DNA of 64,000 bases from Hanstruepera marina. GTDB taxonomy: Bacteria > Bacteroidota > Bacteroidia > Flavobacteriales > Flavobacteriaceae. Location of the stretch: assembly GCF_019880635.1 (NCBI RefSeq), contig NZ_JAINVX010000001.1, positions 744,001-808,000 on the forward strand, in the 5' to 3' direction. Positions 698 through 6,035 of the stretch are shown here, one piece after another; the stretch's first letter is position 1; each line of letters starts with the position of its first letter. The notes beneath the pieces were generated by a model. The model did no database searches and had not been told where the DNA came from. It saw only the letters and a program-made list of their open reading frames with translations. A program made the translations under genes and the position numbers.

Positions 698-1222
698 TTA
701 TTTAATAGAAAAATTTTTCAATTCAGATTTTAAAATTTTAAAAGCACTGTAAATTCTATATTCTACAACCTTTTTTGTAACGCCTAACATTTCAGCTATT
801 TCAATATGTTTTTTGCCTTCAACTTTGTTGAGTAGAAATGCGACACGTTGTTCTTCACTTAATTTTTCAAGAGCTTTTTTGTAACATTCAAAATATTCAT
901 CTTGTTCTAAAATAAACTCGGGTGTTTCATAATCTTCTTTAACACGGTGAGCTTTTTGGTACTTTAAAACCACTTTTTGATGCTTAATTTCATTAAGCAT
1001 TAAATTGTTGGCAACCTTAAAAAGGAACGATTTGGTTTTGTCTAATGAAACTTTTTTACAATTATTCCATAATTGAATAAAGGCATCTTGAGCTTTATCG
1101 TGGGGATTGTATTGATTTCCATATTTATAATATAAAAAATTGGTAAGGTCTTTAACATATTTATTGTAAACGTGTTTGAAGACCGTTTCATCGCAAATGT
1201 TTTCTTGTAAATCTTTCTTCAA
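698..1222 (-). CDS. ECF RNA polymerase sigma factor, FecI/RpoE type
   Basis: The protein has 174 residues, normal for an ECF factor. Sigma region 2 covers about residues 15-85 (HDKAQDAFIQLWNN, then SFLFKVANNLMLNEIKHQKV). Region 4 covers about 112-165 and contains the helix-turn-helix KHIEIAEMLGVTKKVVEYRI. The start is TTG at 1222; no in-frame ATG lies nearby, upstream or before residue 75. It should direct RNA polymerase to a small local regulon and be held by the FecR protein encoded just downstream. Divergent lipoprotein genes begin at 1370 and share an upstream element with fecR, so they are the likeliest local targets. Confidence 0.92.
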   Translation of the reverse strand: MKKDLQENICDETVFKHVYNKYVKDLTNFLYYKYGNQYNPHDKAQDAFIQLWNNCKKVSLDKTKSFLFKVANNLMLNEIKHQKVVLKYQKAHRVKEDYETPEFILEQDEYFECYKKALEKLSEEQRVAFLLNKVEGKKHIEIAEMLGVTKKVVEYRIYSAFKILKSELKNFSIK

Positions 1223-2468: not shown

Positions 2469-2954
2469 ATGAAATCAGAAATTTTTAAATCATTAGGAGT
2501 AATATTAAGTTTTACATTATTATTTACAACATGTTCACATAGCGATGATGATGGATCCCAAAATAATAACAATACCAATAATCAAATACAACAAATTGAA
2601 AATCAGGTCGAGGCTGGCACATGGAGGATAACCAGTTTTGTTGATTCTGGACAAGATGAAACCAATGATTTTACAGGGTATGGTTTCTTGTTCAATTCCA
2701 ATGGGGAGTTAATTGCCACTCATAGTTCGGGATCTAGTTTAACAGGTGCTTGGTCTGTTTCAGACAGTAATAGTAATGACGATAGTAGTAGTGATATTGA
2801 CTTTAATATTTTCTTCAATGTTTCAGACTCAAACAATTTTGAAGACTTAAATGATGATTGGGATATTGTATCACATTCAGACAATATGATAAAATTACGA
2901 GATGTTAGTGGAGGTAATGGTGGTATAGATACACTAACATTTGAAAAAAATTAA
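2469..2954 (+). CDS. Small lipocalin-like lipoprotein
   Basis: The lipobox LLFTTC puts the lipidated residue at Cys22, followed by an acidic and Asn/Gln-rich linker. The rest (about residues 50-161) contains GTWRITSFVDSGQDETNDF and later LTGAWSVSDS and DTLTFEKN. This is the layout of small lipocalin-like Bacteroidota lipoproteins and resembles the C-terminal domain of the preceding gene. It starts 28 bases after that gene and is probably co-transcribed. Function is unknown. Confidence 0.78.
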   Translation: MKSEIFKSLGVILSFTLLFTTCSHSDDDGSQNNNNTNNQIQQIENQVEAGTWRITSFVDSGQDETNDFTGYGFLFNSNGELIATHSSGSSLTGAWSVSDSNSNDDSSSDIDFNIFFNVSDSNNFEDLNDDWDIVSHSDNMIKLRDVSGGNGGIDTLTFEKN

Positions 2955-3014
2955 AACTGAAAAAGAAAAGTTAAATACACCCCAAATCTTTTGCCCTAAA
3001 GCATGTTAGTAGTT

Positions 3015-3052
3015 AAACTGCTTCAATCAGGAGACTCTTTGAAGCAGTTTTT
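3015..3052 (+). terminator. Rho-independent terminator
   Basis: AAACTGCTTCAA (3015-3026) pairs perfectly with TTGAAGCAGTTT (3039-3050), and the T run continues to 3052. It closes the lipoprotein unit and separates it from the operon starting at 3066. Confidence 0.75.
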
Positions 3053-3065
3053 AAAAAGAAAGTTT

Positions 3066-3446
3066 ATGCGCAAAAAGATTATCATAGTATTATTATTTGT
3101 TGTTATAGTGTTTGTTGGATATAACTATGTCTTTCAAAATCATAGAAATATTCAATTAGAAAACGCGAGCTATAAAATTTCTGCTTTAACACTAGCAAAT
3201 GAATTTCAAGAAAACCTTAGTGGTTCTGAATTAAAATATCTAGACAAAACTATTCAGGTGTCTGGCAAAATTTCAGAATTAAGTAATCTGTCAATCACAT
3301 TAGATGAAACCGTCTATTGCCAGTTTCTAGATGCTCAAAACTTGAAGTTCAAACTAAAAGAAAACATACAGATTAAAGGACGCTTTATAGGCTATGACGA
3401 TTTGTTGGAGCAAATCAAACTAGACCAATGCCATATTATTAATTAA
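3066..3446 (+). CDS. Membrane-anchored OB-fold protein (tRNA_anti-like family)
   Basis: I chose the ATG at 3066 because the upstream in-frame ATG at 3003 would place a terminator hairpin inside the coding region. The protein then has 126 residues, with an N-terminal membrane segment (IIIVLLFVVIVFVGYNYVF). A compact beta domain follows, with the OB-fold pattern LDKTIQVSGKISEL, TVYCQFLD and IQIKGRFIGYDDLLEQIKL. This matches the tRNA_anti-like OB family found in Bacteroidota envelopes, which is not known to bind tRNA. It is the first gene of a tight operon; the cupredoxin gene begins 15 bases later. Confidence 0.72.
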   Translation: MRKKIIIVLLFVVIVFVGYNYVFQNHRNIQLENASYKISALTLANEFQENLSGSELKYLDKTIQVSGKISELSNLSITLDETVYCQFLDAQNLKFKLKENIQIKGRFIGYDDLLEQIKLDQCHIIN

Positions 3447-3461
3447 TTAAAATTTTAAAAC

Positions 3462-4055
3462 ATGAAAACAAAATTACTAATGCTTGTATCTTTAATTACA
3501 ATTGGATTACAAGCCCAAACAACCCACGACCTTATTTGGGAGCGAGGTTTTGTAAGTCCTCAAGCAGATTTAACCATTGATGTAGGCGATACCGTAAGGT
3601 GGACATGGACAGACGATTTGCCGCATACGGTAGAAAATAATACCGGTAGTACCGAAACTTTTGATAGTGGAATATTAACAGGATTGGGGCAAACGTATTC
3701 GTACACATTTACTGTTGAGGGTACAAATCCATATTTCTGCGGAATTCATGGGGCAAATAACATGTCAGGTGTTATAACTGTTCAACAGGGCTTAAGCGTT
3801 GTCGAGTTTGAGAATATGTCAATTAAGTTAACACCTAATCCGGTTCATTCCAACTTATCAATCAAGCTGCCTCAACATTTAACCAATGGAAATTTAAAAG
3901 TAGTTGATTTAACGGGTAAGATAGTGCTAAACAGTACAATTATTAATTCAGGAAATACTATAGATATTAATGTTTCAGATATTAAGTCAGGTATGTATTT
4001 GGTTAGGTTAGAGTTTAATGAAAACACCATTACCAAAAGATTGATAATTCAATAA
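3462..4055 (+). CDS. Secreted plastocyanin-like copper protein with T9SS sorting domain
   Basis: A signal peptide is followed by a cupredoxin domain (about residues 22-108). Predicted type 1 copper ligands are His55 (LPHTVEN), Cys93, His96 and Met101 (YFCGIHGANNM). The Cys-x2-His-x4-Met spacing is that of plastocyanins. The C-terminal part (about 120-197) is a type A T9SS sorting domain, with LTPNPVHSNLSIKL, KVVDLTGKIV and SGMYLVRLEFNENTITKRLI. The protein should therefore cross the outer membrane by the type IX system and be surface-attached or released. Electron transfer is the usual role of such a domain. It is cotranscribed with a barrel protein and a cytochrome. Confidence 0.88.
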   Translation: MKTKLLMLVSLITIGLQAQTTHDLIWERGFVSPQADLTIDVGDTVRWTWTDDLPHTVENNTGSTETFDSGILTGLGQTYSYTFTVEGTNPYFCGIHGANNMSGVITVQQGLSVVEFENMSIKLTPNPVHSNLSIKLPQHLTNGNLKVVDLTGKIVLNSTIINSGNTIDINVSDIKSGMYLVRLEFNENTITKRLIIQ

Positions 4056-4083
4056 ATACAAGAGTGTCAAATCTATTTTTTAT

Positions 4084-4938
4084 ATGATGATGAAAAAACT
4101 ATGTATCCTATTATTCTTGTCGCCAATAGGGCTATTTGCCCAGGAAGATTTGCTGGATGAAATAGATACAGATTCAACCAATAACAGTTATGCAGAGGCG
4201 ACTTTTAAGGCGCTAAAGATTGTTAATTTTGAGTCTACTAAACTTGTGGCAAAAAAAGACTTCACTTTAGTAGTAGCTCATAGATTTGGAAGTATTGAAA
4301 ATGGATTTGACACCTTTTTTGGACTAGATGATGCTGTAACAAGATTAAACTTTATATACGGTATATCTGACGGATTTAATATTGGTATATCAAGAAGCTC
4401 ATATCAAAAAACGTATCAAGGATCCATTAAATATAGATTGTTACGGCAACAAGAAAACGGATTTCCGTTCACTTTGGTAGGGTTTAATGCTATTTTAATA
4501 AACACAGGCTTAAGCGAAGATAATTTGCCGAAATTGGAGTTTGTTAATAGACTAGGCTATACAGTGCAATTTTTACTGGCTAGAAAGATAAATTCAAAGC
4601 TGTCTCTTGAATTGGCGCCGACTTTTTTTCATGATAATTACGTAATGGTCAATGGTCAAGATAATTCACAATTCGCCATTGGTTTTGGAGGACGATATAA
4701 AATCGCTAAACGATGGTCTATAAATGCAGATTATGGATGGCATCTCAATAGAGCATCAGTCTCACCATTTCGTAACCCATTATCAATAGGTGTGGATTTA
4801 GAAACTGGTGGGCATGTTTTTCAAATGCATTTTACAAACGCACAACCTATGAATACAAATTATTTTTTAGGTCAGTCTACTGGTGATTGGAGCGAAGGAG
4901 ATATTTATTTCGGATTTAATTTAAGTCGAACATTTTAA
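4084..4938 (+). CDS. DUF5777-family outer-membrane beta-barrel protein
   Basis: A signal peptide ends near LFAQ and leads to an acidic linker. The rest consists of alternating amphipathic strands typical of a small barrel, ending in aromatic FNLSRTF. ALKIVNFESTKLVAKKDFTL and VVAHRFGSIENGFDTFFGLD match the DUF5777 family as I remember it. The family has no established biochemical role. Three ATGs within four codons (4084, 4087, 4093) make the exact start uncertain. The gene starts 28 bases after the cupredoxin gene and ends 8 bases before the cytochrome gene. Confidence 0.8.
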   Translation: MMMKKLCILLFLSPIGLFAQEDLLDEIDTDSTNNSYAEATFKALKIVNFESTKLVAKKDFTLVVAHRFGSIENGFDTFFGLDDAVTRLNFIYGISDGFNIGISRSSYQKTYQGSIKYRLLRQQENGFPFTLVGFNAILINTGLSEDNLPKLEFVNRLGYTVQFLLARKINSKLSLELAPTFFHDNYVMVNGQDNSQFAIGFGGRYKIAKRWSINADYGWHLNRASVSPFRNPLSIGVDLETGGHVFQMHFTNAQPMNTNYFLGQSTGDWSEGDIYFGFNLSRTF

Positions 4939-4946
4939 AAGTTACT

Positions 4947-5312
4947 ATGAAAACGTTCCAATATATAGTTATTGTTTTTTTGCTAATAAGTTATAGCTGT
5001 ACCTCTGTAAGTGAGGAAGATTTAATAGATGACGCTCCACCTGAAGACACATCTGTAACTTACAACCAACATGTAAAATCTATAATAGATAACAACTGTA
5101 TAAGTTGCCATAGTATGCCGCCAGAAAATGGTGCGCCAATGTCTTTAATTAATTATAATGATGTTAAAGACGCCATGCTTAATAGGGGTTTGGTTGAACG
5201 AATTTCATCAGATAATTTAGGGTTTTTAATGCCATTTGGTGGACCGAGGTTACCGCAGAATCTTATAGATACTGTTGTACAATGGGAAGAAGATGGTTTG
5301 TTGGAGAATTAA
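4947..5312 (+). CDS. c-type cytochrome lipoprotein, mono-haem
   Basis: The N-terminus carries a lipoprotein signal ending at SYSC (Cys18). One haem c attachment motif, CISCH, lies at residues 51-55, and Met95 in FLMPFGG is a plausible distal ligand. The 121 residues fit a small class I-like cytochrome c domain on an acidic linker. As a lipoprotein it should face the periplasm or the cell surface. It lies in the cupredoxin/DUF5777/YceI operon, so electron exchange with the cupredoxin is a reasonable but untested inference. Confidence 0.85.
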   Translation: MKTFQYIVIVFLLISYSCTSVSEEDLIDDAPPEDTSVTYNQHVKSIIDNNCISCHSMPPENGAPMSLINYNDVKDAMLNRGLVERISSDNLGFLMPFGGPRLPQNLIDTVVQWEEDGLLEN

Positions 5313-5331
5313 CTTTTTAATCATAATTGTT

Positions 5332-5883
5332 ATGAAAAAAATATGGATACTCGTTGCGTTTTTAATGTCGTATGTGATGTATGGACAAGATAAATTTTTG
5401 ACTAAATCTGGTTCACTTGTTTTTGAAGCTTCTGTGCCGTCGTTTGAAGAGGTTAAAGCAAAAAATGAATCTACAACAGCGATACTGAACTTGGAAAATG
5501 GTGAAATAGCCGCTTTAGCTTTAGTAAAAGGTTTTAGGTTTAAAAATGCACTTATGGAAGAGCATTTTAATGAAAATTATGCCGAATCAGAATTATTTCC
5601 AAAAGCTACATTTAATGGCGTGATAAATAATTTTTCTGAAATTGATATTGATGATGCTAAAAAAAGTAAAATTCATATCGATGGAGTTTTACAATTTCAT
5701 GGTCAGGAAAAGAAAATCCTTATTAAAGATTCTGATATTTCTAAATCAGGAGATGTAATTGTAATCCAAGGTGAGTTTTATGTTCAGGCTTCAGATTTTA
5801 AAATTGAAATCCCAAAAATTGTGAGCAACAAGCTATCTAATGATGTTTTGGTTAGTTTTGCTTTTAGCCTAAATAAAAAATAG
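5332..5883 (+). CDS. YceI-family periplasmic lipid-binding protein
   Basis: The ATG at 5332 begins a clean signal peptide (MKKIWILVAFLMSYVMYG). An in-frame ATG at 5275 overlaps the cytochrome gene and would spoil that signal. The mature part shows the YceI lipocalin-like pattern: GSLVFEASVPSFEEVKAKN, LVKGFRFKNALMEEHF, FPKATFNGVI and the closing strand VLVSFAFSLN. YceI proteins bind isoprenoid lipids or quinone-like molecules in a beta-barrel pocket. It is the last gene of the operon, followed by a strong terminator at 5929. Confidence 0.87.
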   Translation: MKKIWILVAFLMSYVMYGQDKFLTKSGSLVFEASVPSFEEVKAKNESTTAILNLENGEIAALALVKGFRFKNALMEEHFNENYAESELFPKATFNGVINNFSEIDIDDAKKSKIHIDGVLQFHGQEKKILIKDSDISKSGDVIVIQGEFYVQASDFKIEIPKIVSNKLSNDVLVSFAFSLNKK

Positions 5884-5928
5884 GCTATGTATGGTGTTAA
5901 AAGTTTTCACTATATAGTATAATAAACC

Positions 5929-5960
5929 AAAAAACCCTGACAACAGTCAGGGTTTTTTTT
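5929..5960. terminator. Bidirectional rho-independent terminator
   Basis: CCCTGAC (5935-5941) pairs with GTCAGGG (5946-5952) around an AACA loop, flanked by six A on the left and eight T on the right. It serves the yceI operon on the plus strand and tRNA-Phe on the minus strand. Confidence 0.88.
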
Positions 5961-6035
5961 GGTGGTGCCTCCAGGAATCGAACCAGGGACACAAGGATTT
6001 TCAGTCCTTTGCTCTACCAACTGAGCTAAGGCACC
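5960..6035 (-). tRNA. tRNA-Phe (GAA)
   Basis: The reverse complement folds as a full cloverleaf. The acceptor is GGTGCCT with AGGCACC, the D arm GCTC/GAGC, the anticodon stem AAGGA/TCCTT with loop CTGAAAA (anticodon GAA), and the T arm CCTGG/CCTGG with loop TTCGATT. The 3' CCA is encoded (5960-5962). A promoter lies about 20 bases upstream and the terminator hairpin begins directly after the CCA. Confidence 0.97.

Follow-up and report, generated by a model that had tools for sequence, protein, structure and literature searches.

A 64,000-nucleotide stretch of the Hanstruepera marina genome (3.28 Mb in 13 contigs; the whole stretch, on contig C4, is called the window below) carries between positions 3066 and 5883 five genes for an OB-fold protein, a cupredoxin, a DUF5777 outer-membrane barrel, a predicted haem lipoprotein and a YceI-family lipocalin, and the locus raises the question of what these proteins would do together. 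The reading favoured here, to which we give a probability of roughly 0.4, is that the operon encodes an outer-membrane redox unit composed of a quinone or isoprenoid borne by YceI, an entry point formed by the barrel, a one-electron lipoprotein and a cupredoxin at the cell surface. The gene set is apparently both widespread and undescribed. A first-pass annotation of the locus had named no known pathway with this set, and this agrees with the open-licence PubMed Central (PMC) literature, in which DUF5777 and PF19089 occur in no paper and the gene set in none among the topic-search results.

The five open reading frames (ORFs) are all on the + strand and were recovered as first annotated, in a tightly packed operon with gaps of 15, 28, 8 and 19 nucleotides; the start of yceI was taken as the ATG at 5332, and a longer TTG form is also among the ORFs. 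Both terminators that had been proposed to flank the operon are backed by RNA folding: the upstream hairpin (3010-3060) has a folding energy of -17.3 kcal/mol (z -4.14, equalled by none of 200 shuffles), and the downstream hairpin (5925-5962, + strand) one of -19.2 kcal/mol (z -4.66, again equalled by no shuffle). A terminator consensus scan gave three terminator-like sites, compared with 2.4 in shuffles, and these include the downstream hairpin; the upstream hairpin is absent from the output of the scan, probably because of its interior loop. The assigned protein identities also held, four genes by Pfam score and the haem lipoprotein by motif and family. The matches over cut-off are DUF5777 (PF19089, E 9.2e-91, 303.9 bits against 23.1), the OB protein (PF12869, E 1.4e-11, 44.5 bits against 23.5), the cupredoxin (PF00127, E 1.8e-9, 38.3 bits against 21.2) and YceI (PF04264, E 9.1e-8, 33.0 bits against 23.7). 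DUF5777, PF12869 and the plastocyanin family PF00127 each have a single match in the genome, all in this operon, while PF04264 has five, the operon copy included; the DUF5777 protein is 97% identical to one of Hanstruepera flava. The cytochrome scores below threshold in Pfam (19.2 bits for the top family, PF13442, where 27 is the cut-off), and its probable identity rests on the CISCH motif, the lipobox Cys, a conserved Met-Pro pair and family membership. Furthermore, the genome holds two PF01578 cytochrome-c assembly proteins and 62 matches to sorting tails of the type IX secretion system (T9SS), which makes both a haem-c protein and T9SS cargo plausible.

Conservation of the set was surveyed in two samples, in which loci are given L numbers. 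The phylum sample comprises 296 Bacteroidota genomes from 140 genera, with about 6 kilobases read on each side of 136 DUF5777 matches; 134 of 137 loci were readable, window included (L055, L085 and L156 were dropped at ORF picking), and ten weak or partial DUF5777 matches lie outside the locus set. The near relatives are the best 80 of 573 confirmed DUF5777 loci, all Flavobacteriales by title, and were thus not sampled evenly; L205 among them and L041 in the phylum sample are one and the same gene. Partners were counted within four genes of DUF5777 in the phylum loci and within five in the near relatives, for which the barrel alignment covers 72 of the 80 loci and the OB alignment 63 of 75 OB proteins. 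DUF5777 was found in 115 of the 296 genomes and in 65 of the 140 genera. Of its 134 phylum loci, 115 carry a YceI gene and 109 encode a haem-c protein, all of these from a single family, compared with 30 for the OB protein and 7 for the cupredoxin. Both frequent partners crowd around the barrel gene: of the 533 genes at positions 1-2, 113 encode YceI and 109 encode haem proteins shorter than 300 amino acids, compared with 1 and 5, respectively, of the 385 genes at positions 5-6. Since YceI has 73 matches in 21 genomes (the window's own and 20 relatives), or about 3.5 per genome, chance adjacency to DUF5777 should be negligible. All 80 near-relative loci have YceI; 74 have the cytochrome and 71 the OB protein, and 70 combine the three. 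Two layouts are common there, one as in the window, OB-(T9SS protein)-DUF5777-cytochrome-YceI, and one with cytochrome-YceI on the opposite strand from, or ahead of, OB-DUF5777. These gene contents show a recurrent core across the Bacteroidota sample that consists of the DUF5777 barrel, YceI and one predicted one-electron carrier (haem c, sometimes Rieske or cupredoxin), and show that the OB protein, with its predicted membrane anchor, joins this core in the relatives of the window, often with added T9SS-sorted proteins. The proposed co-conservation of all five genes therefore holds phylum-wide for the barrel, YceI and the cytochrome, and in near relatives for the OB protein, but fails for the cupredoxin.

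That the genes are merely co-localised and share no function is hardly credible. Gene order and strand do differ between lineages, as that explanation would have it; however, co-occurrence is far above the positional control and survives the rearrangements, and tight packing is general, as 144 of 151 same-strand adjacent DUF5777 partners lie within 60 nucleotides and 42 of the 151 overlap, with a median gap of 9 nucleotides.

The core is also found on plasmids of four Cytophagales genera (Aureibacter, Emticicia, Hymenobacter and Persicobacter; L254-L257). A haem-c gene stands beside YceI in all four records, with one haem motif in three and two in Emticicia, and in three of the four it is annotated merely as 'hypothetical protein'. 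The annotated order on the Emticicia plasmid pEMTOL02 is sigma factor, barrel protein, Rieske, DUF5777, YceI and c-type cytochrome.

Among the 103 members of the cytochrome cluster that are shorter than 170 amino acids, the lipobox Cys is conserved at 0.99, the CH pair at 1.00, Met95 at 0.98, Pro96 at 0.99 and Trp113 at 1.00, and haem loading is predicted from the motif CISCH at 51-55 with the distal Met95 (0.98-1.00 over these sequences). A simple lipobox pattern is passed by 99 of the 123 members of the whole cluster. The spacing of the haem motif is variable within this one family: CX2CH alone occurs in 65 members, CX4CH alone in 47 and both in 11, so that the unusual CX4CH replaces or joins CX2CH in 58 of 123. 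At 11 loci, a Rieske cluster protein replaces or joins the cytochrome; nine of the 11 are lipobox-like, ten carry the strict Rieske motif (L033 has a longer spacing), and the single member run against Pfam matched PF00355 at 7.3e-7. A count by motif pattern likewise gives 11, including one false match (L033, position +4). On the DUF5777 tree the Rieske label needs six changes, gains or losses, of which at least five are forced by well-supported branches. In addition, cupredoxin lipoproteins occupy the place of the cytochrome in L110, L127 and L146, and L121 has both. Because haem c, Rieske and type 1 copper centres all perform one-electron transfer, this swapping of carriers is the strongest functional evidence obtained, and it provides strong circumstantial evidence, drawn from sequence, that the predicted carriers serve a one-electron function at the outer membrane. 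A redox role of the gene set is well supported, in line with the redox gene set around an outer-membrane barrel that was first proposed.

An AlphaFold2 model of the barrel built from 73 aligned sequences has 12 strands (predicted local distance difference test, pLDDT, 88.4; predicted template modelling score, pTM, 0.80), and its closest folds are FapF (Z 18.3), KdgM (17.8), NanC (17.1), the COG4313 channel 4rl8 (16.6) and LpxR (15.3), with FadL, TodX and OmpLA ranked lower. The top matches comprise a pore for amyloid secretion and porins for sugars, and the cargo can therefore not be read from the fold alone. Solved structures were also searched with a DUF5777 sequence profile (L140 and seven diverse rows left out), and none matched under E 0.1. 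According to the available part of PMC4493636, COG4313 proteins are barrels of 12 strands whose lumen holds an N-terminal segment, and a lateral opening is proposed to let hydrophobic molecules pass. DUF5777 resembles these channels in its fold match and in a weak match to PF13557 (Phenol_MetA_deg), yet it falls under the PF13557 cut-off and its gene context is redox rather than catabolism. The N-terminal segment of DUF5777 contains Phe41, conserved at 0.98, and the position of a lumen plug is not visible in the 12-strand prediction. Furthermore, DUF5777 has near-invariant histidines in its strands, H66 and H244 (each in 133 of 134 sequences), whereas the conserved residues of COG4313 cluster in loops L2-L4 according to the same excerpt of PMC4493636. 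On the model, strand assignment and hydrophobic parity would place H66 and R104 where strands 1 and 3 end on the side taken as outer, H244 and R282 where strands 11 and 12 end on the periplasmic side, and all four residues facing the lipid. A single bis-His haem or metal site formed by H66 and H244 was considered and is unlikely, as the two residues would then face the lipid at opposite faces of the membrane. The predicted placement of H66, H244, R104 and R282 may better fit contact with a lipid or quinone head group than a shared haem. G277, F278, R282 and F284 may be no more than the barrel-assembly signal. The one sequence lacking both histidines, L140 (5977-6867, - strand), is a strongly diverged DUF5777 beside an OB protein and YceI, in which a change of function is possible.

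Similarity to these channels also raises the prospect that an aromatic or isoprenoid compound enters through the barrel, is carried by YceI and, as it is oxidised, gives electrons to the redox protein. COG4313, FadL and TodX among the fold neighbours, YceI as a lipid carrier, and the implication of COG4313 channels in hydrophobic uptake in the available text of PMC4493636 would all suit such a pathway, but no catabolic oxidoreductase recurs among the annotated neighbour families, most small families being unannotated, and we consider hydrophobic uptake with oxidation improbable.

Electrons might instead pass through the barrel directly. In MtrCAB/Pcc conduits and in Cyc2, an outer-membrane barrel is encoded with a c-type cytochrome, and the same is true here; in 100 of 134 loci the cytochrome is at most two genes away from the barrel, and these include a nine-row clade that has no YceI. 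A compact porin-cytochrome conduit would have the haem lipoprotein enter or cap the barrel and pass electrons directly, as in Cyc2 or MtrAB. However, a barrel with 12 strands, as modelled, would be too narrow for a folded cytochrome domain, and the operon differs from MtrCAB/Pcc in this predicted strand number, in the single haem motif among its proteins, in carriers that can be swapped for non-haem Rieske or cupredoxin proteins and in the addition of YceI. It differs from Cyc2 in that cytochrome and barrel are separate ORFs, and CXXCH is absent from the DUF5777 proteins (0 of 134). A Cyc2-like fusion and a direct haem pipe were both ruled against on these grounds (separate ORFs, no CXXCH in the barrel, the 12-strand model and a single haem); a direct electron pipe through the barrel is unlikely given the 12 modelled strands, and a compact conduit is rated as improbable as the uptake pathway.

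The role of YceI was considered by analogy. YceI proteins bind isoprenoids, ubiquinone-8 among them, according to the available part of PMC9113575; in line with the earlier suggestion that YceI supplies an isoprenoid or quinone, YceI is a likely carrier of such a lipid here. The same portion of PMC9113575 describes the Burkholderia YceI lipocalin BcnA, which together with the cytochrome b561 LcoA limits membrane lipid peroxidation, with ubiquinone-8 as the proposed carrier. The present operon is similar to BcnA-LcoA, as given in that excerpt of PMC9113575, in the genetic linkage of a YceI lipocalin to a redox protein and in the proposal of a quinone as cargo. It could therefore be that the operon is a Bacteroidota counterpart of BcnA-LcoA, in which quinol bound to YceI, kept reduced by the one-electron lipoprotein, quenches lipid peroxyl radicals in the outer membrane. 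Besides the Burkholderia precedent, the distribution of COX1 favours such an antioxidant, as all 115 DUF5777 genomes have COX1 and all 13 of the 296 genomes that are free of COX1 also lack DUF5777. This pattern fits aerobic life, but it is confounded by descent, because 10 of the 13 COX1-free genomes belong to one family in which DUF5777 was not found, and 168 COX1-positive genomes have no DUF5777. PF01292, which we take to be prokaryotic cytochrome b561, has no match in the genome of the window or in four congeners, so the antioxidant would need another reductant; where BcnA-LcoA has b561, the gene set here has a barrel together with one of three carriers, haem c, Rieske or cupredoxin. Since this explanation also leaves the surface-sorted carriers, the barrel and the NrfD clade described below without an account, it is regarded as rather unlikely.

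The redox unit proposed here is also informed by DUF5777 loci that have no YceI. In the nine-row clade (support 100), the cytochrome adjoins DUF5777, 4Fe-4S or NrfD cluster genes are present in six of nine loci and an EB_dh protein in five (PF09459, 1.5e-30 for one member). The NrfD protein of L116 matches PF03916 at 8.2e-30, over the cut-off, and the best NCBI matches of its Fe-S and NrfD proteins are DsrO-like (6e-53) and DsrP-like (4.9e-35), with Qrc subunits lower, all under the NCBI cut-offs. NrfD and Fe-S modules of the DsrOP/Qrc type work with menaquinone; in this sister clade they stand beside the DUF5777-cytochrome pair, and they are not part of the window operon. Six more loci couple cytochrome and DUF5777 with a dihaem protein and have no YceI. 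The YceI-free clades indicate that the redox link of DUF5777 is independent of YceI. The pairs near 4Fe-4S/NrfD genes are those of L116, L119, L123, L124, L130 and L137; L116 and L124 also have a second cytochrome and an unknown membrane protein, and L116 further contains a hexahaem protein and a second Fe-S/NrfD set, with no molybdenum catalytic subunit seen by eye in the stretch read.

At the other end of the proposed chain, the cupredoxin of the window has intact type 1 copper ligands (His55, Cys93, His96 and Met101, each conserved at 0.95 among 20 sequences including its own) and a T9SS tail (PF18962, 1.1e-14, 54.9 bits against 27; TIGR04183, 1.2e-13, 50.8 bits against 23). Cupredoxin counts are based on a domain-only profile, because the blast cluster (17 loci) also catches DOMON and other T9SS-tailed proteins and a whole-protein hidden Markov model, with 63 matches, overcounts. 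By this profile, the domain is present in 18 of 80 near relatives (in L175 as a fragment), four of the seven phylum cupredoxins are lipoproteins of another type, and 18 of 20 domain matches have a sorting tail. By gene content, the cupredoxin is optional and stands outside the core. Other T9SS-tailed proteins stand in its slot or nearby, some of them DOMON-type proteins, which were found in 11 of 80 near-relative and 9 of 134 phylum loci, with the sorting tail, Met65 and His151 in 20 of 20. The DOMON cytochrome of cellobiose dehydrogenase binds haem b through a Met and a His, so haem binding is a prediction for the DOMON-type proteins here. A Reeler protein with CXXCH is present in L224, and a similar protein was seen by eye in L245; further T9SS-tailed proteins in L170, L177, L184 and L185 have no family assignment. 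The nine phylum loci with the T9SS DOMON protein (L045, L056, L060, L068, L071, L073, L074, L075 and L100) are also exactly those with a small ankyrin-repeat protein, identified by eye. YceI and ankyrin genes of Riemerella under iron limitation were also considered, and the available part of PMC5429918 allowed no tie to this cluster.

An intact copper site is likewise what would be expected if the cupredoxin and its partners moved or oxidised envelope copper. Metal-efflux-like genes are indeed found upstream in L124 (6-5371), which has a CusABC-like set (ACR_tran 7.3e-86, OEP 2e-17 and two CusB-type adaptors), and similar RND/adaptor genes, recognised by cluster and by eye, are upstream in L079 (51-4504) and L037 (9932-12649). 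However, these are just 3 of 134 loci, unrelated genes intervene in L079 and L037, and the cupredoxin is optional and exchangeable. Copper or metal handling is thus very improbable; of the original proposal that the operon could carry electrons or copper across the outer membrane, the redox part is supported, and copper transport has little support.

In the redox unit that is preferred here, YceI would ferry a lipid across the periplasm, either an isoprenoid quinone or one that is quinone-like, and the barrel would dock YceI and, in the manner suggested for COG4313 channels, admit the hydrophobic carrier to the outer membrane. The haem-c lipoprotein would then swap single electrons with this quinone-like carrier and with the periplasmic cytochrome pool, and the T9SS-exported cupredoxin would be the outermost electron partner at the surface. 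The net result would be an exchange of electrons between the periplasm and the outer membrane or surface without a multihaem wire. Either direction is possible, with outer-membrane quinones reduced as an antioxidant or electrons passed to or from the surface. A more general form of this mechanism is conceivable but doubtful, namely a lipid-mediated electron-exchange module of Bacteroidota in which YceI and the 12-strand barrel create or tap an outer-membrane quinone pool, any small one-electron lipoprotein plugs in, whether haem c, Rieske or cupredoxin, and a T9SS cupredoxin or DOMON protein serves as outer partner in some species.

It should be noted that several observations weigh against the proposed unit. 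The best fold matches of the barrel (FapF, KdgM and NanC) have no known link to quinones, and the match to PF13557 is weak (E 0.0014, 19.2 bits, under the cut-off of 22). YceI is missing from 19 of 134 loci and is hence not required by every DUF5777, and no one-electron carrier is nearby in 12 of 134, ten of which have YceI (L042 and L087 reach contig ends). Placement of the haem lipoprotein in the outer membrane is assumed. T9SS-tailed proteins are absent from the neighbourhood of 38 loci among the 80 near relatives and of 111 among the 134 phylum loci, so surface partners are not universal, and just one of three DOMON proteins tested clears the Pfam cut-off (3.6e-10, compared with 3.8e-7 and 4.2e-5 for the two under it). 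Lastly, the unit leaves the OB protein without an explained role. The AlphaFold2 model of this protein (pLDDT 93.0, pTM 0.75) has 3f1z as its nearest solved fold (Z 11.4), and a CcmE-like haem chaperone was not adopted, as its Z of 8.8 is tied with tRNA-synthetase and telomere OB folds.

The features of the operon and its surroundings are collected in Table 1. The region upstream (1-1222) holds a FecR-like gene, recognised by cluster and by eye, and a gene for an extracytoplasmic function (ECF) sigma factor, both divergent from the operon, and this pair recurs near DUF5777 in relatives; 25 of the 80 near-relative loci have a relative of the ECF sigma factor no more than five genes away. Two lipoprotein-like genes follow, neither of which has a significant Pfam match, and the first is present in 16 of 80 near-relative loci. 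A sigma-like gene is also found directly 5' of one protein cluster in all 19 of its members near DUF5777 (L035, L044, L059, L062, L067, L095, L106, L110, L112, L117, L121, L125, L127, L129, L138, L139, L143, L144 and L146). In the example that was read, a soluble N-terminal part is followed by a single likely membrane segment and, at the C-terminus, by an outer-membrane barrel domain (PF13568), and the protein could be a one-protein signal line from the outer membrane to the sigma factor. Secreted-repeat lipoproteins (PF03640, 1.7e-27 for L064) are also near DUF5777, in L064, by cluster in L065, L121, L139 and L034 and by eye in L256 (2745-3635).

Table 1. Features of the DUF5777 operon and its upstream neighbours, in window coordinates.
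Feature	Position	Strand	Basis
ECF sigma factor, divergent, recurrent neighbour	698-1222	-	PF08281 1.5e-12, PF04542 1.4e-8
Two uncharacterised lipoprotein-like genes, recurrent neighbours	1370-2440, 2469-2954	+	Gene maps of nearest relatives L167-L188
Terminator-like hairpin 5' of operon	3015-3050	+	RNA fold, then U-run
OB-fold protein, 126 amino acids; one N-terminal helix (predicted anchor), then OB domain	3066-3446	+	PF12869
Cupredoxin, 197 amino acids; type 1 copper ligands H55, C93, H96, M101; type A T9SS sorting tail	3462-4055	+	PF00127, PF18962, TIGR04183
DUF5777 outer-membrane beta-barrel, 12 strands predicted	4084-4938	+	PF19089, AlphaFold2 model
Predicted monohaem c-type lipoprotein, 121 amino acids; lipobox Cys18, CISCH 51-55, Met95-Pro96, Trp113	4947-5312	+	ORF, family conservation
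YceI-family lipocalin, 183 amino acids, predicted periplasmic	5332-5883	+	PF04264
Bidirectional terminator 3' of operon	5929-5958	both	Consensus scan match on - strand, RNA fold

Altogether, the gene set is best described as a lipocalin-linked envelope redox system, which resembles a mixture of BcnA-LcoA and COG4313 yet lacks features that define each of BcnA-LcoA, porin-cytochrome conduits, Cyc2 and COG4313. The proposed mechanism offers a first testable role for DUF5777, a family present in nearly half of the genera sampled, and for the YceI copies linked to it, and it would place quinone chemistry at the outer membrane, where such chemistry is not expected. If it is true, aerobic Bacteroidota without multihaem conduits could exchange electrons at their surface or protect their outer membrane by redox chemistry.

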